A DNA stretch of 64,000 bases from an uncultured bacterium. GTDB lineage: Bacteria; Cyanobacteriota; Vampirovibrionia; Gastranaerophilales; Gastranaerophilaceae. Location of the stretch: the NCBI GenBank assembly GCA_900319365.1, contig ONOE01000001.1:124001-188000 (forward strand), given 5' to 3'. Below, in pieces: positions 8,228 through 23,450 of this stretch. The notes below the pieces were generated by a model. The model was not told the DNA's origin. It saw only the letters and a program-made list of their open reading frames with translations, and made no database searches. The position numbers and the translations under genes were made by a program. Position 1 is the stretch's first letter. Every line of letters starts with the position of its first letter.

Positions 8228-10039
8228 CTATATTGAATAATAGAATTTCTTAATTTTTTCAGCCATCATTTTTCTACGTTCTAGTAAGAATTCATCGTAA
8301 TCATTTGCTTGCATTGTTAATACTTTTTCAGGGATACAATTTGTTTTTAGATTATTTTTAAGTTCTTCTTCATTTAAAATTGTACCTACGCAACATTGAC
8401 CATTTTTACATTGCTCTAATGCTTTCGTAAAATATTCACACGGTGCTTGTTTGCCAATAGAAATATTTACACCGGTATCTAAATAAGTATAGTTTGCTAC
8501 TTGATTATATTTTGATTTATCATCAAATCCGTTCTGTTTTAAGTATTCTTTTGGGAATATATGATGAACATCACCCATAACAGAAATCAAGTCAGAAACT
8601 TTGGTTGTTGAAGAGAACAATGACTGTTCTGCGTTCCAAACTTGTGCTGCAATATAGGTATTAAAATATGGACTGTTAATAGATGATGTTTCCAGATTTT
8701 GTACTAAACCTACATTCCAGAATGCTTCAGATAAATCAGCTTCTTCAACTTCCTGCAAGAAAGCCTTAAATCCTTTTGCACTAATATTTCTTAAATCTCT
8801 ATCCATTTGTGATTCAGGTGAACCGATATATCTGCTTGTCAACGTTGATAAAATGAACCACTTTTGAACCAATTTTTTAACTTCTGTTTTTTCAATTTCT
8901 TTTGAGTTGCTTAGCATTAAATATAATGTATAAGCGAAGTCTAATGTCATTTTTGAATTTAATAGTTTTTCACTTATAAAGCCGCAGCCTTTTATAGCAA
9001 GAACAAAATTTTTGAAATTATATTCGTTCATAAAATTCTTTACACCTGCTGTCAGTTTATTGAAGCTGTCTTCTGCAATATCTTCCTTATAAGTTCTTGT
9101 TTCAAAATCTCTACCCGATAACAAGCTTACCAAATCACCGAGTTTTCCTCTTCCAAATTTATGCATTAAGCACACGCGCAACATATCATTGTAATCAGGG
9201 TCGTATATTGCCTCTTTATCATCCTTTAACCACTTTAATAATCCTGCAAATTCAGACTCCATAAATTCAATATCTGTTGTAGAAAGTTTTTCATAGAAGT
9301 TTGGATCAACAGCCAAATGGCAAAAATAATCGATTGCTTTTCTAAGAATGTTGCCACCATATTTAGCATCTGCTGCAATTTTGGACATAGCAAAATCTGA
9401 TTCATTAAGGCGTTTGCCTTGTGAGTTAATTCTTACAAAAATTTCCGTAACTTCATTTATATCCAAATCCGGAACTAAAATAATTGTACCCATTTGACAA
9501 GTTCTAATATCTAATAATTTTTGAATTGCTCTATTAATAGTGTCTGTAGAAGCTTCAGGATTATTTTGCATGTATTCATTTATAAAATTAAAAGCGTTAA
9601 AATCAGGTTTAAATACAACGGAAATATCCGGAATCCAATTTTTACTTTTTACATGAGCAGGAGTTTGAACCGCGAAACGTTCCTCATCGTCTTGCGCCAA
9701 AGGATTAAATGCTATTTTATATGCTTTTTGTTCGTATTCTTCAGTAAGAATACACTTGCCAGCCAATGCTGTCATTAGGGCAGTAACCCTTTGTTGTCCA
9801 TCAATTAAAATTTTAGTTCCGCCGGCTTCACGCCCATCTTTTAACCTTATATTTGGATTCTGCCAAATAATTAAATAACCTGTAGGATATCCATTATACA
9901 AAGAATCTATTAGATCTCTAACATTTTTAGGTTTCCAAACAAATGGACGCTGTATTTCAGGAATGGATATTTCTCCACTATTTATAAAGCCAAGAATGTT
10001 ATCTACTGAATATTGTGCAACTGAATATTTATTAGTCAT
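8228..10039 (-). CDS. DUF262/DUF1524 (GmrSD-type) nuclease
   Basis: 603 residues. The N-terminal DUF262 domain has QRPFVW (30-35) and the ParB-like DGQQR motif (80-84), where the family binds and hydrolyses nucleotide. The C-terminal DUF1524 domain carries an HNH core (GDVHHIFPKEYL near 505, then NQVANYTYLD and N at the metal site). Both GmrS and GmrD halves are in one chain. Relatives (GmrSD, SspE, BrxU) restrict phages with modified DNA. An AAGGAG site precedes the ATG. It leads the HhH-like gene and lies opposite a hydrophobic micropeptide gene and the XRE-ImmA pair. Confidence 0.88.
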   Translation of the reverse strand: MTNKYSVAQYSVDNILGFINSGEISIPEIQRPFVWKPKNVRDLIDSLYNGYPTGYLIIWQNPNIRLKDGREAGGTKILIDGQQRVTALMTALAGKCILTEEYEQKAYKIAFNPLAQDDEERFAVQTPAHVKSKNWIPDISVVFKPDFNAFNFINEYMQNNPEASTDTINRAIQKLLDIRTCQMGTIILVPDLDINEVTEIFVRINSQGKRLNESDFAMSKIAADAKYGGNILRKAIDYFCHLAVDPNFYEKLSTTDIEFMESEFAGLLKWLKDDKEAIYDPDYNDMLRVCLMHKFGRGKLGDLVSLLSGRDFETRTYKEDIAEDSFNKLTAGVKNFMNEYNFKNFVLAIKGCGFISEKLLNSKMTLDFAYTLYLMLSNSKEIEKTEVKKLVQKWFILSTLTSRYIGSPESQMDRDLRNISAKGFKAFLQEVEEADLSEAFWNVGLVQNLETSSINSPYFNTYIAAQVWNAEQSLFSSTTKVSDLISVMGDVHHIFPKEYLKQNGFDDKSKYNQVANYTYLDTGVNISIGKQAPCEYFTKALEQCKNGQCCVGTILNEEELKNNLKTNCIPEKVLTMQANDYDEFLLERRKMMAEKIKKFYYSI

Positions 10040-10339: not shown

Positions 10340-10687
10340 ATGGATGAAGAAAATTTTGGACAATATTTAAAAAAAATAAGATTGACTCATAATGTAAGTC
10401 AAAGAGAACTCGCAAATAATATTGGTGTTGATTTTACTTATTTAAGTAAAATTGAAAATGGGAAATTGGAACCACCAGCAGAAGATACAATAAAAAAAAT
10501 AGCAAATTTCTTAGGTGAAGATGCCGACCATTTGATATTATTAGCAAATAAAATTCCTAGTGACTATAAAGATGTGTTAAAATCAGATCCTAAAATTCCA
10601 TTTATGTTGCGTCAAATAGGTGGCTTTACAAATACTCAAAAACGTAAACTATTTAAAGCAATCGAAGATATCGAAAGGAATAAATAA
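10340..10687 (+). CDS. XRE-family HTH transcriptional regulator
   Basis: 115 residues. The N-terminal HTH_3 domain is clear (FGQYLKKIRLTHNVSQRELA, then DFTYLSKIENGKLEPP). The second half is helical. Such proteins repress mobile-element promoters and are often destroyed through a partner ImmA/IrrE protease. Here that partner begins immediately after the stop codon. The promoter carries an inverted repeat that probably mediates autorepression. The absence of a ribosome site and the promoter position point to leaderless translation. Confidence 0.9.
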   Translation: MDEENFGQYLKKIRLTHNVSQRELANNIGVDFTYLSKIENGKLEPPAEDTIKKIANFLGEDADHLILLANKIPSDYKDVLKSDPKIPFMLRQIGGFTNTQKRKLFKAIEDIERNK

Positions 10688-11302
10688 ATGACCTATATTT
10701 CTGATAGCACAATTGAACAAAAATCATTTGAATTGCTGTCAAAATATAGTAAAAATTTTAATTGGCAGCTTTCATTTCCTATTCCAATAGAAATGGTTAT
10801 AGAAAAACAACTCGAATATTCTCTAGATACATTTTTTGAAGATGAAAATATATTGGGAGCAATTGATCAGACTAATAAAATAATTTATACAAATGAAAAC
10901 GCAATATCATATTTTAAATCGTACCCAGGTTCTTTTGAATTTACTTTAGCTCACGAAGTAGGGCATTGGGATTTACATTGCGATTATAATAGTAACCAAC
11001 TTAGAATAATGAACAAACCTGTTTCTATGATATGTAGGGCCGGCGACAGAGATTTTAAAGAAATTCAAGCAAACAAATATGCTGCAGCTCTTTTAATGCC
11101 AGAATACTTGGTAAAAGAAACATTAAAAGCTGTTGATTACTATAATTGGCCAACCTTATATAATATAGCAAAAGACTGGCATGTAAGTGTTACTGCATTA
11201 AAAAACAGATTAGAAAAGCTTAAATTGTTATATTTTGATGAAGAAACACAATCTTTTTATGAAAATAAAATCGCTGCAAGCGGTCAGCAAACACTATTTT
11301 GA
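10688..11302 (+). CDS. ImmA/IrrE-type zinc metalloprotease
   Basis: 204 residues. The HEXXH motif (AHEVGHWDLH, His89-Glu90-His93) and the downstream glutamate helix (DFKEIQANKYAAALLMPE, Glu125) are diagnostic of COG2856/ImmA proteases. These cleave the cognate XRE regulator and so induce the element. The gene starts at the base after the XRE stop, so it is translationally coupled. The C-terminal HTH-like stretch (VSVTALKNRLEKLKLL) is also typical. It likely controls the nearby HNH promoter, which has a matching operator-like palindrome. Confidence 0.9.
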   Translation: MTYISDSTIEQKSFELLSKYSKNFNWQLSFPIPIEMVIEKQLEYSLDTFFEDENILGAIDQTNKIIYTNENAISYFKSYPGSFEFTLAHEVGHWDLHCDYNSNQLRIMNKPVSMICRAGDRDFKEIQANKYAAALLMPEYLVKETLKAVDYYNWPTLYNIAKDWHVSVTALKNRLEKLKLLYFDEETQSFYENKIAASGQQTLF

Positions 11303-11330
11303 AAGATTGTAAAAATTTGTTAATATAATA

Positions 11331-11462
11331 TTGTGTTGAGTATCAACTCCAACTATAATACATGGTGTATTAGATAAGTGGAGGATACAAACATGCAAAT
11401 TAAATAAGGGGAAAGGGTTGGAGGGCAAAAAAATAGTGATTTTATTTGGACATAAAATCACT
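11331..11462 (+). promoter_or_regulatory. Promoter, operator, mini-ORF and hairpin leader upstream of HNH gene
   Basis: TTGTGT (11331-11336) and TATAAT (11354-11359) are spaced 17 bp with a palindrome GTTGA-GTA-TCAAC (11335-11347) in between, matching the XRE operator half-sites. Downstream a GGAGG site (11380-11384) leads to a four-codon ORF, MQIK-stop (11393-11407). A G-rich stretch follows, then an 11-bp perfect hairpin (11435-11445 with 11452-11462, 6-nt loop). No T-run follows the hairpin, so it may be a structured leader or small RNA rather than a terminator. The nuclease start is about 100 nt downstream. Confidence 0.5.
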
Positions 11463-11565
11463 GTTAATAAAAAATTCGTAAAAAAATTATACTTGCTAAT
11501 TTTTTAAAAACAATATTTTGTTAGTCCATTTGAAAAATAGCAATACAAACAATGAGGAAACAATC

Positions 11566-11808
11566 ATGTCAAAAAAAGATGATGCTTGGAATAACGCAAA
11601 TGAAATAAAAGGACAAAATCCAGATGTATGGAGAAAAGATGCCTACGGTAATAAGATACGATATGGTTCTTATGGCACACAAGGAGATTATGGCTGGGAG
11701 ATCGATCATAAACACCCAGTTTCAAAGGGAGGAACTGATTCTCCAAGAAACTTACAGGCGTTGTATTGGGAGGAAAATCGCCAAAAAGGCAATAAATATC
11801 CATACTAA
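11566..11808 (+). CDS. Small stand-alone HNH endonuclease
   Basis: 80 residues from the ATG at 11566, chosen for its GAGGA site 7 nt upstream. The HNH core is complete: WEIDHKHPVSKGGTD (Asp-His), NLQAL (Asn) and ENRQKGN (Asn/Lys helix). Single-domain HNH proteins of this size nick or cut DNA and occur in phage, intron and toxin settings. It follows a structured leader and the XRE-ImmA pair and may be part of their regulon. A strong terminator follows. No immunity gene is obvious; the DUF4186 gene is convergent. Confidence 0.85.
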   Translation: MSKKDDAWNNANEIKGQNPDVWRKDAYGNKIRYGSYGTQGDYGWEIDHKHPVSKGGTDSPRNLQALYWEENRQKGNKYPY

Positions 11809-11816
11809 AATTTTTG

Positions 11817-11846
11817 AGGCGGCTAAATGGCCGCCTTGCCTTTTTT
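11817..11846 (+). terminator. Rho-independent terminator of the HNH gene
   Basis: AGGCGGC (11817-11823) and GCCGCCT (11830-11836) form a 7-bp GC-rich stem with a 6-nt loop, followed by a T6 run ending at about 11846. It overlaps the 3' end of the convergent DUF4186 gene. Confidence 0.8.
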
Positions 11847-12182
11847 AATTTCCAAGTTTATCCATTCCATAATTACCGAAACAAGATATTCTTGTTCGGA
11901 TTTAGTTAGTTCCCTGTGCTGGGAAAATTTGTGCCATTTTTCGATACAGCCGCGGCAGCATGTGGCGGTTGCATGCTGAGCGATAAAAACAGGGTGTCCT
12001 CGCATTGGTGTTTGTTTGCCATCATTTGCAGGTTCTGCCGGAGCTACTCTATCCCGAATAAAATCACAGGCATGAGAGCGAATCTTATCAAGTCCTTTAT
12101 CTTTGATATATTCAAGTTCTTTTGCCCGAAGTTTAAATCTGCTCCTGAATTTTGATTTTGCAAGTCTATCTAAAATATCCAT
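11823..12182 (-). CDS. DUF4186 family protein
   Basis: 119 residues matching the DUF4186 pattern: a basic N-terminus (KFRSRFKLRAKELEYIKDKG), the central H(A)xDFIRDRVAPA and a cysteine/histidine cluster (HATATCCRGCIEKWHK). The cluster suggests metal binding; the biochemical role is unknown. It begins 2 nt after the macrodomain stop, so the two are coupled. The family often accompanies macrodomain genes, which hints at ADP-ribose or NAD metabolism. The 3' end contains the terminator of the opposite HNH gene. Confidence 0.85.
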   Translation of the reverse strand: MDILDRLAKSKFRSRFKLRAKELEYIKDKGLDKIRSHACDFIRDRVAPAEPANDGKQTPMRGHPVFIAQHATATCCRGCIEKWHKFSQHRELTKSEQEYLVSVIMEWINLEIKKGKAAI

Positions 12183-12184
12183 AT

Positions 12185-12691
12185 TTATTGATTCAAAGTC
12201 CTTTTATAAATTTCAATAATTGCATCATTTATGTCTATAAAAATAACTTTTTCAAGGCAATCATTTTTATCAATAAAATTTTTAACTGTGTCAGTTGCTA
12301 TTTTGCAGGCTTCTTCTAAAGGGAAATGATAAACTCCGCAAGAGATAGCAGGAAAAGCGATTGTTTTGATTCCGTTTTCTTTCGCTAGAGTTAGAGCCGT
12401 TTCATAACAGGATTTTAATTTTTCTCTTTCGTCATATTTACCCCAATGCCAGACAGGGCCAACTGTGTGAATTACAAATTTTGCAGGCAAATTATAACCT
12501 TTTGTAATTTTTGACTGCCCTGTTTGGCAACCGTTTAAAGTTCTGCATTCTTCTAAAAGCTCTGGCCCTGCGGCACGATGAATTGCACCATCCACTCCGC
12601 CACCACCTAATAAACTTGTATTTGCGGCATTTACTATTGCATCAACTTCTAACTTTGTTATATCACCTTTTAAAATTTCAATTTGTGCCAT
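12185..12691 (-). CDS. Macrodomain O-acetyl-ADP-ribose deacetylase
   Basis: 168 residues from ATG 12691; a TTG at 12715 would put the AGGAG site inside the gene. Macrodomain signatures are clear: GDITKLEVDAIVNAAN, LLGGGGVDGAIHRAAG and FPAISCGVYHFP. The family hydrolyses O-acetyl-ADP-ribose or removes ADP-ribose from macromolecules. It heads a two-gene operon with DUF4186. It may detoxify an ADP-ribosylating system of the host or a phage. It lies just outside the candidate left end of the Mu-like transposon. Confidence 0.92.
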   Translation of the reverse strand: MAQIEILKGDITKLEVDAIVNAANTSLLGGGGVDGAIHRAAGPELLEECRTLNGCQTGQSKITKGYNLPAKFVIHTVGPVWHWGKYDEREKLKSCYETALTLAKENGIKTIAFPAISCGVYHFPLEEACKIATDTVKNFIDKNDCLEKVIFIDINDAIIEIYKRTLNQ

Positions 12692-12740
12692 AAACTCACA
12701 ATCTCCTAACACCAATTATAGCACTGATTTTGAGATTTGA

Positions 12741-12828
12741 CTTACATTTTTTTACACGAAAAATTGAGCAAATCTTACACTTTTTTACAGGAAAATCTGG
12801 GGTAAAATTACATTTTTTTACAGGAAAG
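12741..12828 (+). repeat. Three phased 22-bp repeats, left transposon end
   Basis: Copies at 12741-12762, 12774-12795 and 12807-12828 share TTACA(T/C)TTTTTTACA(C/G)GAAA with an exact 33-bp period, about three DNA turns. Phased direct repeats at an element end are how MuA/TnsB transposases bind. The CGAAAA ending and TTACAT start recall the MuA end consensus, though with one extra base. The last copy abuts the stop codon of the third transposon gene. Confidence 0.75.
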
Positions 12829-14355
12829 TTAAATTATTTGAAAATTATCATCTAATTTTTGTGGTAACAAGAAATTGTACCTGCTTTCAAAATCCGTCAG
12901 CTTATAAAACCCTAAATTTCTGCTGATTATATTTATTTGAATGTTTTTATCAAGTAACAATTTTATATGAGTGTTTAATAACAAATCAAAATTGTCTATT
13001 TTAACATCTTTGAAAAGCAATCCCTTTTGTCTTTTAGGTATTTTATTAAATAAAATATCCGGTATTTGTAATGTTCTTATCTTATATTTTGCTCTAATAT
13101 TTTCGATGTTTCCTTTGTTTTTGAACTTGCTTATATTTACGGTTTTATCGCTAAAATTAATATCCGTATAATATAGAGCCCCAAGTTCCGCTATATTTAT
13201 TCCTGTTGATAAAATCCATAATTTCTGTATTTTACTATCGTCTTTAATTATTTGATGAATTTCTGAATCAGTTAAAACTCTGTTTTCAAGTGAAGGTAAA
13301 ATGGTTTCTTGTGTCGAAAACAGAAGGTGGCTGGCATTTGAATATTTTTTCATGATTTTTTGAAATGTGCTTATAAACCGCTTTATACTTGCAACGGAAT
13401 AACCTTCGGATAACATTTTGCTTTGATAATTAATCAAAGTTTCTTGCGTAATATCTTTAAACTTGTATTTGCCAAAATATGGATATAAGTGGTTTTGGAT
13501 ATAACCTTTAGCACAAACTGAGTTTTCATCTTTCTTATTTTCAAGCGTTTTCAAGTAATCATCAAATGCTGTGCTAACTTTTTCGTATGTTATTTTATCT
13601 GTTTCAGCTGAAGATATTTTGCGAAGATCGGGAAGTTTTAAACTTTCGCTTCGTCGTTTCTTAATATATTCCAAAGAAAAGTTTTTAGTCAGGGCTCTTC
13701 TAAAGGATTGAACACTTGAAATTTGTTCGTTTGGGTGTCTACTTCTTAATATCTCCCATGCGATTCTGACCGAATAATTTTTGGGGGTTAAATAGATTCC
13801 TTCAAATTCTTTTAATTGCTCTTTTGTCACTAAGCTCTTATGTTGCGGTGGATTATAGGCTTTCATTAAACCCAATAAACCATTTCTTGCATAAGATGAT
13901 TTCCATCTTATAAAAGTGCTATACCCCATTTTATAATCAGGATTTTTCTTGGCTATTTCATTTAACATTTTTGAGGTTTCTTTAAAAGACAAACCGCTTG
14001 TTAATTTGAATAAATTCAAACATTTTATAATATGTCGTTTATTATATTCTGCGGCATTTTCAAACAGTTTTTGTGCTTCCTTGTTATCAGATAATAATGT
14101 TGTTATATCAAAACACAATTTGGGTTTAGATTGTTTTAGTGAGGGTTTTTGCGGCAATGTTTCAACTTGTGGATATGGAACAATATCTGGTACATAGGCA
14201 AATTCTGTTTCAGATATTTTGCTTATAACTTTCTCTGCTATCAAATCCTGTATTATTTTTTGAACTTCATCATCGCTCAGCTCTAATATACTTGCAATTT
14301 CATCAAAATTAAACCTGCTCAGTTGTTTGCACAGTTTCTTTATCTGTTGCTTCAT
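12829..14355 (-). CDS. Hybrid transposon protein: Mu-like HTH domains plus degenerate tyrosine-recombinase fold
   Basis: 508 residues. Residues 1-55 form a winged-helix. Residues about 100-235 resemble the DNA-binding region of Mu transposases (FIRWKSSYARNGLLGLMKAY). From about 255 there is a SAM-like core-binding domain, then a tyrosine-recombinase catalytic fold (STGINIAELGALYYTDINF, NIISRNLGFYKLTDF, SRYNF). Canonical residues are altered: box I Arg is Asn387, HxxR aligns with Asp457 and Leu, the His/Trp is Phe483; only Tyr493 is kept. Cleavage activity is therefore unlikely. It overlaps the MuB-like gene by 47 nt with an AAGGAG site, so it belongs to the transposition operon, perhaps for target or end recognition. 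Confidence 0.7.
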   Translation of the reverse strand: MKQQIKKLCKQLSRFNFDEIASILELSDDEVQKIIQDLIAEKVISKISETEFAYVPDIVPYPQVETLPQKPSLKQSKPKLCFDITTLLSDNKEAQKLFENAAEYNKRHIIKCLNLFKLTSGLSFKETSKMLNEIAKKNPDYKMGYSTFIRWKSSYARNGLLGLMKAYNPPQHKSLVTKEQLKEFEGIYLTPKNYSVRIAWEILRSRHPNEQISSVQSFRRALTKNFSLEYIKKRRSESLKLPDLRKISSAETDKITYEKVSTAFDDYLKTLENKKDENSVCAKGYIQNHLYPYFGKYKFKDITQETLINYQSKMLSEGYSVASIKRFISTFQKIMKKYSNASHLLFSTQETILPSLENRVLTDSEIHQIIKDDSKIQKLWILSTGINIAELGALYYTDINFSDKTVNISKFKNKGNIENIRAKYKIRTLQIPDILFNKIPKRQKGLLFKDVKIDNFDLLLNTHIKLLLDKNIQINIISRNLGFYKLTDFESRYNFLLPQKLDDNFQII

Positions 14356-15037
14356 CGTTTAAAATCTCCTTAATTATAATTTCATCAATAGAATTTAAGC
14401 CGTTTGCTTTTGCATAACATTCGGCTTTATTTATAATTTTTACTATCTGACGGAATCGGTTTACATTAGCGCAAATGCATTTTATCGCACATTCTGTCAT
14501 TTCAATTTCTGATAATTCTTTAACAATTCCTGCTATGTCGTTTTTAGAAAACGGCTTAAATTGGACAATTTCAGAAAGTCTATCGTATAGGTGCTTAAAC
14601 CTTTTTATCCTTGATTTAGCGTTTGACATTCCGACCAAAATAATAGGGACATTCGTCTTATCGTGAATGTCCCTTAAAGTTTCTATTGCTCTTGAATCAA
14701 TCGCCAGATAATCGACCTCATCAACGATTATAACCTGTGGCTCTGTTAATAAATTCCTTATAATAATCTTGAAACAATCAGCCAATCGCCCGCAGTTAAC
14801 TTCGCCCATTTCATCCATAATTTCATTTAATAACCACCGAGCGGTCATAAGCTGGGTACATCGGACAAGTATTGCATTATTCTTAAACGCCCACCAATTG
14901 ATTGTTTGAGTTTTACCAAGCCCAGGCTCGCCATACACAAGTCCCATCCCAGGAACTCCTTCCGCTCGGTTTTGCAGGTTGTTCATCATTGTGATAAACC
15001 GCTTTACATTGTTTGTTTTTACGAAAACTTTTTTCAT
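14309..15037 (-). CDS. MuB-like AAA ATPase, transposition target-capture protein
   Basis: 242 residues. Walker A GEPGLGKT (36-43) and Walker B VIIVDEVDY (Asp106, Glu107) lie in a short AAA+ core typical of MuB/TnsC/TniB. The N-terminal NVKRFITMMNNLQNRAEG and the sensor region (PIILVGMSN) also fit. MuB polymers bind target DNA and stimulate the transposase. The ATG has an AGGAAT site. It lies between the transposase and the hybrid protein gene, overlapping the latter. A GTTTTGTGTCTA element sits about 75 bp upstream, as also before the transposase gene. Confidence 0.88.
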   Translation of the reverse strand: MKKVFVKTNNVKRFITMMNNLQNRAEGVPGMGLVYGEPGLGKTQTINWWAFKNNAILVRCTQLMTARWLLNEIMDEMGEVNCGRLADCFKIIIRNLLTEPQVIIVDEVDYLAIDSRAIETLRDIHDKTNVPIILVGMSNAKSRIKRFKHLYDRLSEIVQFKPFSKNDIAGIVKELSEIEMTECAIKCICANVNRFRQIVKIINKAECYAKANGLNSIDEIIIKEILNDEATDKETVQTTEQV

Positions 15038-15233
15038 ATCAAAATTCCTATTTCTGTCATCATTAACATTAATCGCTTGTCTTGGCAGAAATTGGAACTG
15101 TTTTTATCGTTTTGTGTCTAAAATTATTAGTTTGGAAGGCTATTTTTATAGTTAAGTTAATAAATGTAAAGCATGAAAATATAATGGTAATCATGCTTTT
15201 GAATGATATTCATTATTTATTATCATTACAATC

Positions 15234-15262
15234 TTGAAATAAGCATGCTAACATGTTATAAT
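15234..15262 (+). promoter_or_regulatory. Strong promoter of the AbiF-associated RNA
   Basis: TTGAAA (15234-15239) and a perfect TATAAT (15257-15262) are separated by 17 bp. The predicted start is near 15269, immediately before the hairpin RNA. Just upstream, AAAGCATGA (15168-15176) and TCATGCTTT (15191-15199) form a hairpin separating this unit from the divergent MuB-like gene. Confidence 0.75.
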
Positions 15263-15268
15263 ATAAGT

Positions 15269-15319
15269 ATTAGTGCAGACCAAGCCTCTTTACAATGCTA
15301 AAATGGGTCTGCCTTTTTT
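15269..15319 (+). ncRNA. Short hairpin RNA upstream of the Abi_2/AbiF gene
   Basis: GCAGACC (15275-15281) pairs perfectly with GGTCTGC (15305-15311), enclosing a 23-nt loop, and a T6 run follows (to about 15318). With the promoter at 15234-15262 this defines a roughly 50-nt transcript ending before the protein start at 15339. AbiF genes are known to be accompanied by a conserved structured RNA (the abiF RNA motif), proposed as guide or antitoxin-like partner. Match to that family is inferred from position and shape, not from alignment. It could alternatively act as an attenuator for the gene. Confidence 0.6.
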
Positions 15320-15338
15320 GTTAGATAGGGGAATAAGT

Positions 15339-16292
15339 TTGGAAAAATTTGAAAAAGAATCTTTAACCGCAGAGGAACAACTTAATTTACTTATTAAAAG
15401 AAATTTAAAAGTAGACAATTTTAAATCTGCTGTCGATATCTTAAAAAGAATAGGATATTATCATTTATCTTCCTATATGCGATTATTTCAAGAAGGAGAA
15501 AATCATATATTTAAGGATAATGTTGAGTTTGCAGATTTAATAAATTTGTTTAATTTTGATAGTGAACTTAGACATATTACTTTCAAGGCAATAGAAAAAA
15601 TAGAAGTTGCATATAGAGTAGCTATTTCAAATGTAATGTGTAAGAAGTATGGTTCTCATTGGTTTACCAATAAGGAAACTTTTAAAACTAAAATAGATCC
15701 TAACACAAGCCAAGAAGTTGACTATGTCGAAATTTGCAAAGAAATCATTAATAAAGAAATTAAGAAAAAAGATGATGAATATGCTGAAACATTTATCGCC
15801 AATTACTACAATAAGTATAATGAGCCAGAACTCCCTCCATTTTGGATGGTTGTTGAAACATTTACAATTGGTTCTTTAAATAAACTTTATCAGAATATCA
15901 ACCCGAAAGATAAAAAAGAAATTATCAAGTATTTAGGATTTAATGCGGATGCAAAATTTATAAGATTTTCAAATTGGCTATACGCATTGAGTGTAATAAG
16001 AAATATATGTGCTCACCATTCAAGATTATTTAACAGAATATTTAGAATATCTCCATCTAAGCATGATAAAATACAAGAATTCCAAGGGGTCGATAATAAT
16101 AGATTTTATTATATTTCAATGATAATTAATTACTATTTAATAACTATATTAAAGGATAAATCTTTTGAAATAGATTTACAAAGATTATTTAGTAAATATA
16201 AATCAATTTATAAAACCAAAATGGGATTCCCAAAAGATTGGAATAGTTTTAGTATTACACCAATTGGTAAAAATATAATAAAAACGCTATAA
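15339..16292 (+). CDS. Abi_2/AbiF-family HEPN abortive-infection protein
   Basis: 317 residues from TTG 15339, which has an AGGGG site 8-10 nt upstream. An upstream GTG (15273) lies inside the RNA hairpin and is rejected. The protein has the Abi_2 pattern: EEQLNLLIKRNL, GYYHLSSYMRLF, and the HEPN RNase motif RNICAHHSRLFNR (Arg-x4-His, Arg221/His226 in this numbering). Abi_2 proteins kill or arrest infected cells, and AbiF is regarded as related to the ancestor of Cas13 HEPN nucleases. It sits as plus-strand cargo inside a minus-strand transposition operon. RNA dependence is inferred from the adjacent hairpin RNA. Confidence 0.88.
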   Translation: MEKFEKESLTAEEQLNLLIKRNLKVDNFKSAVDILKRIGYYHLSSYMRLFQEGENHIFKDNVEFADLINLFNFDSELRHITFKAIEKIEVAYRVAISNVMCKKYGSHWFTNKETFKTKIDPNTSQEVDYVEICKEIINKEIKKKDDEYAETFIANYYNKYNEPELPPFWMVVETFTIGSLNKLYQNINPKDKKEIIKYLGFNADAKFIRFSNWLYALSVIRNICAHHSRLFNRIFRISPSKHDKIQEFQGVDNNRFYYISMIINYYLITILKDKSFEIDLQRLFSKYKSIYKTKMGFPKDWNSFSITPIGKNIIKTL

Positions 16293-16305
16293 ATATGTAA
16301 TTTAA

Positions 16306-18369
16306 TTAGGAATAAATTTCTTTGTATTCGTCTGATTTTATGTAATTAGTTAGCCAAGTTCTGTCCTCTTGGCAAATACAGCCGTTTTGCATGTGCCACT
16401 CATAACGTTCATATGCACTCTTAAATATTGGCCTTGCAACAATTGAAGTCTTAACCTTTGGCTCAAAATCTTGCTTTGGCTTTTGTTCAGGTTGAATAGT
16501 TATTTCCTTTATTGGCTCAGGCTCAGGCAAGCGAATATTTTGCATCAATTCTTTTTCAAGATAATCCATATCCTCCAAATTAAAATGCTCTCGAACTGCT
16601 TTAATCGTTTTCCTACGTAGCTTTTGTTGTTTTTCAATTTTTTGCTTATAGTCCTCAATATCTTTAATATCGCCCATTTGGTAAGCAAGCGGATGGGTTT
16701 CCGTTATGCGGTTTGCTTTGCATATAAATTCGCCCTTCATTGAATAAACCTTGATATATGAAAGGTCAAACAGACTGTACTTTATGACGGTTTTCTCTTT
16801 GATACCATAAAGTGCTTCATCAAAATAATCAGCTTTCAAAAATCTTATTCCGTTTCTACCGATTGATTTAATTTCTTGTGCCATCATCAAATCGTCAAGC
16901 GAGTTTTCGTCAATATTTTGCTTTTCAATTTCGTTTAAAACTTCTTGAATTGTTTTATCTTTAGCATTCGGACAAGGTTGCGAGTGTTTGAATTCAAGCC
17001 ACTTTTCAATCATTTTAAGTGCCTGCTCTATTGTCGGGGTAAAACTGTATTTCTCATGGATATTTTTGTGCAACTTCTCGTTTCGCATTAAATATGCTGG
17101 CTTATTTTCAATACTTGTGCCAATATAGCTTGGAATCAGCTTTTCAAAACTTTCCTGAAAATCCAAAAAGAAACGCTCGATGACTTTGGCTCGAGCGTTG
17201 TATGGAGTGGCATAGACAGGTTTTATTCCGAGTTTGTTATATACTCCTGTAAACCCTAATTCCTCGAATTTTTTATCTCCGTTAAAGAACTTGCTTTTGA
17301 ATGCTCTGCCATTATCTTGGTAAACATATTCGGGGATATGATCCATTTTTAAAATCGCGTTTCTTAAAGCAGACGCGATATTTTGAGTACACTCTTCAAG
17401 CATAATGTCATACCCCACAAGTCCACCCGATTTCCAATCCAAAAACCCAAGCAAAGTCGCTCTGCAAGGTTTTCCTGTAAATGGGTTTATTACTTGAAAA
17501 TTTAGCGTATGCCCGTCTGCAACAAGCACCTGCCCAGCCTTTAAAAGTGCTGCGTTTCTGACTATAAACGGACTGACTTTATCCTTTAGAGCTTTTTCTC
17601 CGTCTCTAGCAAGTGTCCATTTATCAAAATTATTATCCCTAAACCATTCTGCATATCTTCTGAAAGTTATGTCTTTAGGTAAAATCTCCTGTCCGCGTTC
17701 TTTTAGAATATGCTTTGTTAAAGAAATCGCTTTTCCTATTGAAAAAGCACTTGGGGACAATAGTATTTGTATAAATATTTTAATTTGTTCTTCATTTAGT
17801 GTTGTTCGATACTCTTTTCGGGTTGAATATTTATATTGCCCAACAAGCGCCGTCCAATCTTTGTTGTAATCTAAAAGTGCCCGCCAGCGATAAAGTGAGC
17901 CGATTGAGACTTTACCTAAAATCTTAAAAATCTCTTCCTGAAACATTCCTGTATTATATAATTGCAAGAATTCTTTATCGGGTACGTTGCCACCTGTTTT
18001 CAATTTATCTCTTTTGTATTCTTTCCTAAAATCAAGCCAAGCATAAATTAAATCATATTTTGCCAGTGCAATTTTTCTTTGGTTTTCAGATATCAGTTTT
18101 TCTTGCTTAATGTTGAGATTTGATAGTTCAATAATCTCGTTATCACGCGTTTTATCATCATCATAATATTCCTGAAAATACTTAAGCTGTAGTTCTTCTT
18201 CAAGCGTTGATAACTTAATTTTGTATGTTTTTCCGCCACGAATATTTTCAACCTTGTATTCATATTTGTTTTGATTCAACGCAAGCCGAACTGCTCTACG
18301 GGTAATGTTTTTGAGTTTCGCTAATGTTTCAACATCAATCCAAATGTCATTATTATTAATGTCTGCCAT
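16306..18369 (-). CDS. MuA-like DDE transposase
   Basis: 687 residues. An N-terminal winged helix (residues 10-60) and a second HTH region (about 100-165, SIGSLYRWRALL) bind the ends. The catalytic integrase core shows VLVADGHTLNF (Asp285), VYQDNGRAFKS (Asp352) and NARAKVIERFF (Glu398); the 67-residue first spacing equals that of phage MuA. A beta-barrel-like region and charged tail follow. An AAGGAT site precedes the ATG. It is the first gene of the minus-strand operon with MuB-like and hybrid genes; a TATAAT and TGTGTCTG lie 90-100 bp upstream. Confidence 0.92.
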   Translation of the reverse strand: MADINNNDIWIDVETLAKLKNITRRAVRLALNQNKYEYKVENIRGGKTYKIKLSTLEEELQLKYFQEYYDDDKTRDNEIIELSNLNIKQEKLISENQRKIALAKYDLIYAWLDFRKEYKRDKLKTGGNVPDKEFLQLYNTGMFQEEIFKILGKVSIGSLYRWRALLDYNKDWTALVGQYKYSTRKEYRTTLNEEQIKIFIQILLSPSAFSIGKAISLTKHILKERGQEILPKDITFRRYAEWFRDNNFDKWTLARDGEKALKDKVSPFIVRNAALLKAGQVLVADGHTLNFQVINPFTGKPCRATLLGFLDWKSGGLVGYDIMLEECTQNIASALRNAILKMDHIPEYVYQDNGRAFKSKFFNGDKKFEELGFTGVYNKLGIKPVYATPYNARAKVIERFFLDFQESFEKLIPSYIGTSIENKPAYLMRNEKLHKNIHEKYSFTPTIEQALKMIEKWLEFKHSQPCPNAKDKTIQEVLNEIEKQNIDENSLDDLMMAQEIKSIGRNGIRFLKADYFDEALYGIKEKTVIKYSLFDLSYIKVYSMKGEFICKANRITETHPLAYQMGDIKDIEDYKQKIEKQQKLRRKTIKAVREHFNLEDMDYLEKELMQNIRLPEPEPIKEITIQPEQKPKQDFEPKVKTSIVARPIFKSAYERYEWHMQNGCICQEDRTWLTNYIKSDEYKEIYS

Positions 18370-19362
18370 ACCGTATCCTTATTTATTATTAAAGCTACTG
18401 TATGTTAGACTGCTTTCTCTCAAAATGGAAGTGTTTGAGGGGGAAATGTGTTGTTTTGTGTCTGATTATATCTGAATTTTAAGCAGAAAATTTTATAAAA
18501 CACCCATAAAACTATTGTAAAACGCAATTTAAACAGGGTTTGAATTTATTCTTTGGCAAAAATCTGCTATTTTCTCTCAATTCTGCTTCCTGCTTTAAGG
18601 GGTAAAATTAATCCGATATTTTTTACACTTGGTTTTAGAAAACTCATCTTAAAGTTTTTGAATTTATTTCGATAAAATCTTTATAAAATAAACTCAGGGA
18701 AGTGATTTCCCACTAAAAAAATTACTTCCGACTTTCAAACGATAATTATTTTTCAATTACCTCATTTTGCAAAAATTCAAAAATTTCATGCAAAAATTTA
18801 TCAATTTATAAGAACGCCAAAAAGCCAATTATACGGACTTTTGAACAATATTGAACAAAATATAAAACAAAGCATCCGAAAAATTGCAAACTGTCTGTCA
18901 AAATTCACCATTTTGTCCGGTGCTAAAATCCAAACACGTCGGGAAAATTCAGCAATATTAAGAAAATTTTAGGAAAATCACCGGACTTTTACATCCTAAT
19001 AAACGGGCATTCCGGACTTTTCGATTACCTCATTCTCCTTTTGAGGGAAGTGCCTCAATCGCCCATATAACAAAACTTTCCGCCCTCGAAATAACCAACT
19101 ATAAATTCTCATTGTCACTATTAACCTACATTTTGACAGAAAATCCATGACTTTATATATTAATTAATAGATTAAAATTAGATGATTTTTAATCCAAGTT
19201 ACCAAAAAATCTCAAACTGTCTGTGATGAAGTTTCAAACTGTTTGTGATTTTACAGCCCTTGCGCTTGTTTTTTTGCAAAACCCAATCAAATTATGCTCC
19301 ATTCTTTCGCATAATTTTCTTGGAGCGCACGGCTCCCTCTCGTTCAAACCTTTTATAAACAT
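18370..19362. other. Long noncoding AT-rich region at the transposon right side
   Basis: Nearly 1 kb without a credible gene. It holds the transposase promoter region, two copies of TTC(A/G)ATTACCTCATT (18752 and 19019 areas), four copies of a CCGGACTTTT-like word (near 18833, 18918, 18978, 19012) and three copies of CAAACTGT(C/T)TGT (18887, 19213, 19235). A GGAAGT/ACTTCC hairpin lies near 18699-18730. The density of short degenerate repeats suggests a complex transposon end or decayed sequence rather than coding DNA. Confidence 0.6.
18876..19256 (-). repeat. Right-side repeats of the Mu-like element
   Basis: On the minus strand, ACAGACAGTTTG followed by an A/T-rich tail occurs at 18876-18904 and 19201-19230, with a tandem relative (ACAAACAGTTTGAAA) 22 bp farther out to about 19250. 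The 19207-19225 copy shares TTTGAGATTT and CAC-GA with the sequence just outside the left repeats, in inverted orientation. These are candidate transposase sites at the right end. Confidence 0.5.
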
Positions 19363-20438: not shown

Positions 20439-23400
20439 TTAAAGCTTGATAATTTCATCAATTCGGCGCATAAGCTCATCTGTTTTGACCAAAGCCAAAA
20501 CAATTTTTTGATAATACAATATTTCATCATAGCTTAAAATCTTGCCTTTACGGTCTTTGAGCCACTTTTGCGCAGGTTGATAACCGCCAATGCAGAAGTT
20601 CCATGCGAGTTCAGGAACATCTCCAAAATATTGGATTTTGTTGATATAAACCTTATTTTCTTTGTATTCGGGCTTAACAACCTCATTTGTGCCCGACTCG
20701 GGATATGTTGTAATTAAATTATCGAGTTCGGGGGTTTCCATAAGATGCAATTGTCTTAATTGTTTGCCGTATTTTGCTATGTTAAAGAAATACTCTGCGT
20801 TTTTTGGATATGGTACACGAGGGAAATCAATTTTCAAAAACTCTTTATACTTATTTCTGTATTTGTCCGAATACAAAATGCCATATATATAATCAAAAAT
20901 ATCAATCGGCGCAAACGTACCTTTTGATTCGTCTTTTTCAGGCATGAAAATGAGCCCTGACCGTTGTTCAAAATTATGTACAATATCCATGTTCAAATTA
21001 GGTTTGCGGGAATTTTCAAAGAATGATTTTTGCTGCGTATTGTCATCATAAAGATATAGCTGGAAAACATAACTTTGAAAACCGTAGAAATTAATATCAA
21101 CAAGAGTATTACTGATTAAAACAGTATTATATATTGAGGTATTAACCAAATTGCGCATAAGAACCAATCCTAAATTAGTTCCCGGCGTAAAATTTTTCAT
21201 AACATTATATCTGTGCCTTACAACCTTGTTTAAATCATAATTTATATACCTGTTATCAAACGGTTTGTAATAATATTTTTTATTGTTATCAGTGTTAAAA
21301 GGCTGCATTGAAACAAGCTCATTATCATGATGAGTTTTTACACCGCTTGTACTGATAAGAAACAGTTCATCAATTTTAAACCCTTTTTCATAATCTGCTT
21401 GTGCCTCAAAGTCTTTAGGAACAAAGAAATAATAAGGTTCAAGCGGTTGTAATTCTTTATAATTCGTAGTTTTTAATTCATGATTATTTAAAAATTCATA
21501 TTTTTGATTTCTCAAACCAAATATTTCAGCATAATAAACTTTTGCCGATTGCTTTTTAGCTTTTGCGGAACTTTTTATAAATATATTGATACTTACACCC
21601 TGTTGAATATCAAAAACATTTTCATCTTTTGAACCGTCAGGAGCAGCTTCTTTCTTCTTAGAATTTCCATGCAGATTTAGAATATATATTTTATCAAAAG
21701 TTTGCATGAGGTGCTTTCTCATTTGCCTGTGAATTACGCCGTCTAAGAAACTGTTATTTGATATATACGCAAGTATTCCCTCATTATTCTTTTCAATATA
21801 GTTTTCGCCCATACTGATAAACTTGATATAATCATCCGACAATGGTTGTATATTTTTTTCATTAAGGTCTTTTTTATATACAGACATCATTTCATCAATA
21901 TAATCGCTTTTGTTGCAACTGCTTATGCTGTATGGCGGATTGCCCATAACTACCATTATCGGCTTATCTGATTTTATCATGCCTGCCTGTCGTGCTTCTT
22001 CCGATAACCAATCCAACAGCGGATATTTGGTTGTTTCGTCTTTTTCAAGAGCATTAGTCAAATATACATTAAATCTGTTTGTGGTTTTTGTTGTTTCGTA
22101 ACCTGTTTCTTTAAGTAACAAATCCAGTTTTAAATGACACATTACATAAGGGGTCATCATAATTTCAAAGCCGTTCAAACGAGGTATCAAGGCTTTGTCA
22201 ACATATTGCGACCATAAACCCTTTTGATTGACGAAATATGAATATATTTTTCTTATAGCCTCTGCCAAAAATGTTCCCGTGCCCGTTGCAGGGTCTAATA
22301 TCTGAACTTTATAAACATCTTCTTCGGTTGTAACGGGAGCATCAATTACTTTGTTTTTAACTTTTTTCTGCTTATGGTACAAAATTCTTGTGTGCTTTAT
22401 TGTCGAATCATCAGCAAGCCCGTGGGCTAAATTAAATTCACTTTTGAGCAAACTGTCAACCGATGAAACAATAAATCTTACAACGGGCTGTGGAGTATAA
22501 AAAACCCCTCGTTTTTCTTTAGTTACCTTGTCATAACTTGCAAGAAATGTTTCATAAAAATGCAAAAACGGGTCTGTCATTTGAGTATCTTTGCCATAGT
22601 TATAAAGCAATTTATGCAAATCAACCGCTCTAAAGATTTCAACTAAATCATCAACAATCCAAACAAGGTTATCATCAAGGTTTGCGCCCGAAATATAATC
22701 AAACAATTGCCGCAAAAACGGGTTGTTTTTTGATACAAGTTCTCTTGCTTCCTGCCTTGAAAAATCTTCCAATGTTGTATCATTTAACCTCGCAACAAAT
22801 AAACCGTATGCAATGGTCTGGGCATACATATCAGCAAAAGTATGGTTGGTCAAATCATGTAAAAGAACCTGTTTAAAGGCATCAAGCTGACTTTTTAACG
22901 AAGTTTCACTATCATATTCAAGAGATTTTATAATAACATCTCTTATCATAACGGCCTTTTGTGCTATTAAATTTGCAAGTTGTTTAGGGGATTTAACGGT
23001 TTGTCCGTGATAGTCGCAAAAATTCCTTATATGATTTAAAAGAACGGGGAAAGTATTTTTATCGGGTTTAATTTTACCGTTTTGGATTTCTGCTATTTTT
23101 ACGGTATCAACTTTTTCACCGTTTATAAAAAATCTGAACTCTATATAATTTGTCAAAATAAGGTTATCAAGACTTGCACGGTATCTTTCAAGCTGTTCGG
23201 AATTTTCAAACATATCAAGATTTTTGTCAATGTCTTTAGCCTCAATATAACCTATCTGAATACTTTTCTTTTGTACGATATAATCCGGTGCCCCGCACTT
23301 TTGCCTACGGGGTTCATTTATTGCCTGAATACCTTTGACGGTATCTTCAAAAAATTTTTGCAGCTCACCTCTAAAACTGTGCTCTGTTGTCTGTCCCGTT

Positions 23401-23450
23401 TTATACTTTTGAATAACCCCATCAAGATAATTTTCAACTTCGTTTGCCAT
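20439..23450 (-). CDS. Type ISP/IIG restriction-modification enzyme (nuclease-methylase fusion)
   Basis: 1003 residues. The N-terminus has a PD-(D/E)xK nuclease (GAPDYIVQ then IGYIEAKD; Asp56, Glu70, Lys72). The centre is an N6-adenine methylase with motif I DPATGTGTF (near 388) and motif IV NPPYS (near 505). The long C-terminal half probably recognises DNA. A single chain that cuts and methylates fits type ISP/IIG systems. A TATAAT (23457-23462, minus strand) ends 6 nt before the ATG and no ribosome site is seen, so the mRNA may be leaderless. It closes the accessory island. Confidence 0.88.
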   Translation of the reverse strand: MANEVENYLDGVIQKYKTGQTTEHSFRGELQKFFEDTVKGIQAINEPRRQKCGAPDYIVQKKSIQIGYIEAKDIDKNLDMFENSEQLERYRASLDNLILTNYIEFRFFINGEKVDTVKIAEIQNGKIKPDKNTFPVLLNHIRNFCDYHGQTVKSPKQLANLIAQKAVMIRDVIIKSLEYDSETSLKSQLDAFKQVLLHDLTNHTFADMYAQTIAYGLFVARLNDTTLEDFSRQEARELVSKNNPFLRQLFDYISGANLDDNLVWIVDDLVEIFRAVDLHKLLYNYGKDTQMTDPFLHFYETFLASYDKVTKEKRGVFYTPQPVVRFIVSSVDSLLKSEFNLAHGLADDSTIKHTRILYHKQKKVKNKVIDAPVTTEEDVYKVQILDPATGTGTFLAEAIRKIYSYFVNQKGLWSQYVDKALIPRLNGFEIMMTPYVMCHLKLDLLLKETGYETTKTTNRFNVYLTNALEKDETTKYPLLDWLSEEARQAGMIKSDKPIMVVMGNPPYSISSCNKSDYIDEMMSVYKKDLNEKNIQPLSDDYIKFISMGENYIEKNNEGILAYISNNSFLDGVIHRQMRKHLMQTFDKIYILNLHGNSKKKEAAPDGSKDENVFDIQQGVSINIFIKSSAKAKKQSAKVYYAEIFGLRNQKYEFLNNHELKTTNYKELQPLEPYYFFVPKDFEAQADYEKGFKIDELFLISTSGVKTHHDNELVSMQPFNTDNNKKYYYKPFDNRYINYDLNKVVRHRYNVMKNFTPGTNLGLVLMRNLVNTSIYNTVLISNTLVDINFYGFQSYVFQLYLYDDNTQQKSFFENSRKPNLNMDIVHNFEQRSGLIFMPEKDESKGTFAPIDIFDYIYGILYSDKYRNKYKEFLKIDFPRVPYPKNAEYFFNIAKYGKQLRQLHLMETPELDNLITTYPESGTNEVVKPEYKENKVYINKIQYFGDVPELAWNFCIGGYQPAQKWLKDRKGKILSYDEILYYQKIVLALVKTDELMRRIDEIIKL

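Follow-up and report, generated by a model that had tools for sequence, protein, structure and literature searches.

A putative AbiF toxin-antitoxin module with a divergent abiF RNA, carried by a Mu/Tn7-like transposon of a Gastranaerophilaceae bacterium

The window analysed here, a stretch of 64,000 nucleotides from an uncultured bacterium of the Gastranaerophilaceae, very probably contains an AbiF-family toxin-antitoxin module that is type III-like, judging from its sequence, a predicted protein model and analogy with characterised systems. The module consists of an Abi_2 HEPN protein gene, whose product is predicted to adopt the PbAbiF fold, and a structured RNA with its own promoter, upstream on the same strand. 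It is an ordinary further case of a recently described toxin-antitoxin family. In the RNA hairpin the loop is conserved and probably serves to bind the protein; it is not a target-reading guide.

The AbiF protein

The toxin gene (15339..16292, + strand) encodes a predicted AbiF/Abi_2 HEPN ribonuclease of 317 aa. As the earlier note had read it, the protein starts at TTG and bears the motif RNICAHH, which occupies residues 221-227; the Abi_2 domain (PF07751) is recognised with an E-value of 5.6e-53 and 180 bits against a cut-off of 25.6, and PADLOC names the protein AbiD (6e-68). The homologues begin at TTG 15339, while the mechanical list of open reading frames begins at GTG 15273, inside the RNA. 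A putative ribosome-binding site, AGGGG, lies at 15327..15331 (+). The phmmer search gave one convincing solved relative, PbAbiF of a Prevotellaceae (PDB 8VZ6), which matches residues 4-303 (E 3.9e-34), and the predicted catalytic residues Arg221 and His226 (RNICAH) align with its R210 and H215. An AlphaFold2 model made from 36 homologues (pLDDT 90.8) agrees with 8VZ6 from end to end in Foldseek (E 1.9e-17, TM 0.80/0.85), with no other match at E <= 0.001. All 13 residues that are invariant among the 36 homologues are present, including R221, N222, H226 and H227. Agreement with PbAbiF over the full length, in sequence as well as fold and with both catalytic residues aligned, argues for a toxin-antitoxin module.

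PbAbiF is a single-stranded-RNA nuclease that is blocked by bound AbiFr, according to cryo-EM work as summarised in PMC12737573, and its R210/H215 double mutant is inactive. The window pair resembles PbAbiF-AbiFr also in the upstream noncoding RNA, but the proteins share 30% identity, the RNA has another sequence, and the window pair is known from its sequence and a predicted model. The other characterised system is AbiFCd-RCd22 from the Clostridioides difficile phage phi027, in which toxicity needs R202/H207 (PMC12373285) and the catalytic motif is RNQCAH, against RNICAH in the window. Distribution of the protein is sporadic, with an AbiF homologue in four of 59 relatives. In viral contigs, a single-protein query found no AbiF relatives and an alignment query found some.

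The upstream RNA and its promoter

The RNA has a sigma-70-type promoter (15234..15262, +) of the form TTGAAA-17-TGTTATAAT with an extended -10, which the earlier note had read as TTGAAA-17-TATAAT. The -35 TTGAAA (15234-15239) and the -10 TATAAT (15257-15262) are separated by a 17-nt spacer, the -10 is preceded by TG, and 11 of 12 positions match the consensus. Exactly 12 nt lie between the -10 box and the hairpin, a spacing that recurs in homologues of several phyla: in a set of 72 other distinct upstream regions, the mean TATAAT score is 3.65 at 12 nt before the stem and 1.1-2.5 at all remaining distances from 2 to 39 nt. A -35 hexamer stands 16-17 nt upstream of the -10 in the same regions, a layout identical to that of the window. 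Leader position -5 is nearly invariant, with A in 71 of the 72 regions; the window has T.

The hairpin itself (15275..15312, +) has an outer helix of 7 bp (15275-15281/15306-15312) and an inner helix of 3 bp (15283-15285/15297-15299), as delimited by covariation alignments A6 and A5, with an apical loop of 11 nt (15286-15296) and a 3' bulge of 6 nt (15300-15305). The perfect 7-bp stem described earlier is there, GCAGACC/GGTCTGC, but what it encloses measures 24 nt (15282-15305) and not 23. One C follows the stem, and then comes the expected T6 run (15314..15319, +). Single-sequence folding energy is unremarkable (z = -0.98) and by itself uninformative, so that the case for a hairpin above chance is made by comparison, through covariance models and Rfam.

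At the gathering threshold Rfam gives no match in the 64-kb window. In E-value mode RF03085, the abiF RNA, matches 15276-15312 with 29.7 bits, under the gathering score of 37, and in a search of the whole 1.95-Mb genome this is the sole match at E <= 0.01 (E 0.002), directly upstream of the genome's single AbiF homologue. The Rfam search that the earlier note had proposed thus finds the site but leaves its score below the cut-off. The hairpin is nonetheless a divergent abiF RNA, because covariance model R1, built from ten homologues with the window sequence left out, finds it as the one match in 64 kb (15279-15308, E 7e-6). Among 97 loci picked solely for encoding an AbiF relative, 69 give an R1 match at E <= 0.1, including 62 of the 90 that were not R1 seeds, and the median gap from hairpin to gene in abiF-like loci is 25 nt. 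An AbiF gene with its own conserved RNA, as the earlier note supposed, is therefore borne out, and the hairpin is kept among AbiF homologues, one of the two points on which that note had staked its reading.

Compensatory changes, which an alignment of homologues had been expected to reveal, are evident. The ungapped alignment A6, with 15 distinct sequences including the window, has 98.7% of cells paired and two-sided changes in seven of ten pairs, values that none of 500 shuffles reaches. In the wide alignment A5 the figures are 99.7% and ten of ten (0/500 shuffles), this alignment having been fitted to the structure and being biased towards it. The window shares with RF03085 the two-helix hairpin, the AAGCCUCU...AUGCU segments, the A-rich bulge and the position upstream of abiF. 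It differs in the outer stem, GCAGACC/GGUCUGC, where four of seven pairs depart from the common ACCCGCC/GGCGGGU, each by a compensated change, and in the bulge, AAAAUG in place of CAAAUC, with A at position 26 where the canonical RNA has C or G.

It could be argued from the divergence of the RNA and the scattered occurrence of the protein that the locus is a decayed, non-functional remnant within the transposon. This we regard as highly improbable, given an intact 317-aa frame that retains every invariant residue, an outer stem altered by paired substitutions and still perfect, and an intact promoter.

The predicted antitoxin RNA of about 50 nt (15269..15319, +) has its ends placed by the promoter and the U-tract directly 3' of the stem. 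A T-rich tract is general in the family: 67 of 76 RNA matches have at least five T in the 9 nt that follow the stem. Since the -10 spacing, the -35 and this tract are kept in the window as in the other regions, the RNA probably forms a transcript of its own, about 50 nt long, which stops at its U-tract, with the toxin expressed by read-through as for RCd22. The antitoxin hairpin would then double as an intrinsic terminator. The AbiFCd-RCd22 locus likewise has a SigA promoter, an abiF-motif RNA, a terminator and then abiF, but RCd22 (about 98-132 nt) combines two motifs with a distinct terminator, whereas the window has one motif followed by its own U-tract (about 50 nt), and the carrier is a prophage there and a transposon here.

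Reading of the loop and proposed mode of action

The earlier note proposed that the loop could be a target-reading segment and AbiF an RNA-guided toxin, that is, a ribonuclease that cuts RNA matching the loop in the manner of a proto-Cas13. AbiF has indeed been proposed as the Cas13 ancestor (PMC12737573), and it carries an HEPN RNase motif. We reject the idea of a target-reading loop because a guide would show the reverse of the pattern seen, with the loop variable and the stem kept. Compared with the 15 ungapped homologues, the window RNA is 46-88% identical in the loop and 29-43% in the stem, so that the variability anticipated in the loop is found in the stem. The supposed loop is in fact a covarying 3-bp inner helix, AGC/GCU with variants CGC/GCG and UGC/GCA in homologues, together with near-invariant nucleotides, and it is kept across phyla. 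No further copy of it occurs in the genome with up to three mismatches, no exact copy occurs in viral contigs, and no CRISPR-like array surrounds the abiF gene. A Cas13-like effector unites two HEPN domains, but the protein has 317 aa with a single HEPN domain and one R(N)xxxH motif, and the locus has neither a variable guide segment nor a spacer array; PbAbiF alone was returned by Foldseek at E <= 0.001. AbiF has been described in print as lacking RNA-targeting specificity (PMC12948488), and in the published work on PbAbiF and on AbiFCd the RNA acts as an antitoxin and not as a guide (PMC12373285; PMC12737573). An RNA-guided ribonuclease thus has very little probability, and the term RNA-guided is unsupported for this toxin.

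The other half of the earlier description, an RNA-controlled toxin, fares better, for the RNA most likely controls AbiF. One way to do so would be in cis only, the hairpin being a mere terminator or leader that limits expression of a toxic gene and has no antitoxin action on the protein. The U-tract right behind the stem in most RNA matches suits such an attenuator, as does the read-through control documented for RCd22, measured in C. difficile (PMC12373285). A bare terminator, however, needs no invariant loop, covarying inner helix or conserved bulge. According to the account in PMC12373285, AbiFCd is toxic, and RCd22 neutralises it both in trans, by binding the protein, and in cis, by termination. 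We therefore consider attenuation in cis alone unlikely.

A toxin-antitoxin module, the preferred reading, is further favoured by an RNA that is conserved, covarying and correctly placed and oriented, with promoter spacing and U-tract kept in 72 other regions. Against it stand the sub-threshold Rfam score, the replaced outer pairs, the bulge A and the leader T at -5, and also the single motif, against two in C. difficile; nor was anti-phage action of AbiFCd demonstrated in that species.

By analogy with the two characterised systems, we infer the following mode of action. A strong promoter would drive synthesis of the short hairpin RNA, terminated at its own U-tract, and occasional read-through would yield the mRNA of the AbiF ribonuclease. 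At least one RNA copy would bind each AbiF dimer and block its non-specific RNA cutting, as has been shown for PbAbiF and AbiFCd. If RNA synthesis or the balance of RNA to toxin were upset, for example by an infecting phage or when the element is lost, the freed toxin would halt growth. As transposon cargo, the module could serve abortive-infection defence, maintenance of the element, or both.

Carrier transposon and variants of the RNA

The abiF gene sits in opposite orientation between two genes of a Mu/Tn7-like element, a Mu/TnsB-like DDE transposase (16306..18369, - strand; rve and Mu-transpos_C domains), for which sister elements have proteins 97-98% identical, and a TniB/MuB-like AAA ATPase (14309..15037, -; AAA_22 E 1.9e-18, TniB E 2.9e-6). 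The third gene of the element is tyrosine-recombinase-like, with a SAM-like domain (12829..14355, -; Phage_int_SAM_3 E 2.3e-7), which is unusual beside a transposase and an ATPase of these types. Three 33-bp tandem repeats resembling TTACATTTTTTTACAGGAAA (12741..12839), also present in sister elements L242 and L029, probably are transposase-binding sites at the left end.

In colinear sister elements of the same genus, L025-L032 among them, the transposase and ATPase genes are about 15 bp apart and abiF is absent. The best comparison is L242, which lies in the same chromosomal neighbourhood, with DNA identity of 90% over 11857-15037 and 88% over 16313-18451, and has about 15 bp where the window has the 1,275-bp abiF segment (15038..16312, +). 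The sisters, one at the same chromosomal site, thus bear out the earlier description of abiF as cargo of a Mu-like transposon. A cassette-boundary motif around the insertion, TGYGTCTRAWWTTAT, was considered too weak (it has 10 matches in 64 kb where 5.1 are expected, and 3 of 100 shuffles reach 10). Similar 15-mers, TGTGTCTAAAATTAT and variants, occur on the + strand at 15113 in the abiF segment, 16327 just past its end and 18457 past the transposase, and they are statistically weak.

Defence genes appear to be exchanged within the element family, since sister copies bear Kiwa-like or AbiL-like genes. L242 has Kiwa-like KwaA/KwaB (kwaA/kwaB; 10341-12035, -) near the transposase, in an insert corresponding to window positions 18435-18451, and L025 has an AbiL-like pair (12423-14231, +; AbiLi E 3.6e-66, AbiLii E 7.8e-6). 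Beside none of the other abiF loci compared is there a transposase or ATPase of the window type; the idea that abiF and transposons of this family go together in general was therefore rejected, and their association is probably a single event. On one side of the element lies a type IIG restriction-modification enzyme (20439-23450, -; PADLOC E 2e-283), on the other a GmrSD_N-domain protein (8228-10039, -), consistent with a defence island.

Some features of the window RNA recur elsewhere. The ACCC/GGGU outer stem is replaced in the window and in L060, and the bulge A at position 26 is common to these two and L033. These three may constitute an AbiF-RNA lineage that follows a recognition code of its own and is orthogonal to (insulated from) the canonical abiF RNAs present in other genomes of the family, two toxin-less ones included, an idea that we hold tentatively and consider rather doubtful. 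The toxin-less RNAs, L042 1501-1537 (-; 55.3 bits) and L046 1501-1537 (+; 48.9 bits), score above the Rfam cut-off in genomes that are 97-99% complete and in which no Abi_2 protein was found anywhere; the L046 RNA is followed, 30 nt downstream, by a gene for a uracil-DNA-glycosylase-superfamily protein. Are these antitoxins that have outlived their toxin, or do they act against incoming AbiF? In the Picosynechococcus plasmids L037 and L038, two tandem abiF RNA copies precede abiF, as in RCd22, where most loci have one.

The window holds a naturally rewritten abiF RNA in which most outer-stem pairs are replaced and the loop is kept, a true member of its family that the Rfam threshold misses. 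In RCd22, disruption of the stem abolishes neutralisation and stem swaps are tolerated, so that the shape of the stem is needed and its sequence is not (PMC12373285). The natural replacement agrees with these C. difficile mutants and suggests, as they do, that what is read in abiF RNA is the shape of the stem but the sequence of the loop and bulge. The attractive idea of the loop as a guide is corrected, and the AbiF module takes its place among the defence genes that are carried interchangeably by a Mu/Tn7-like element.
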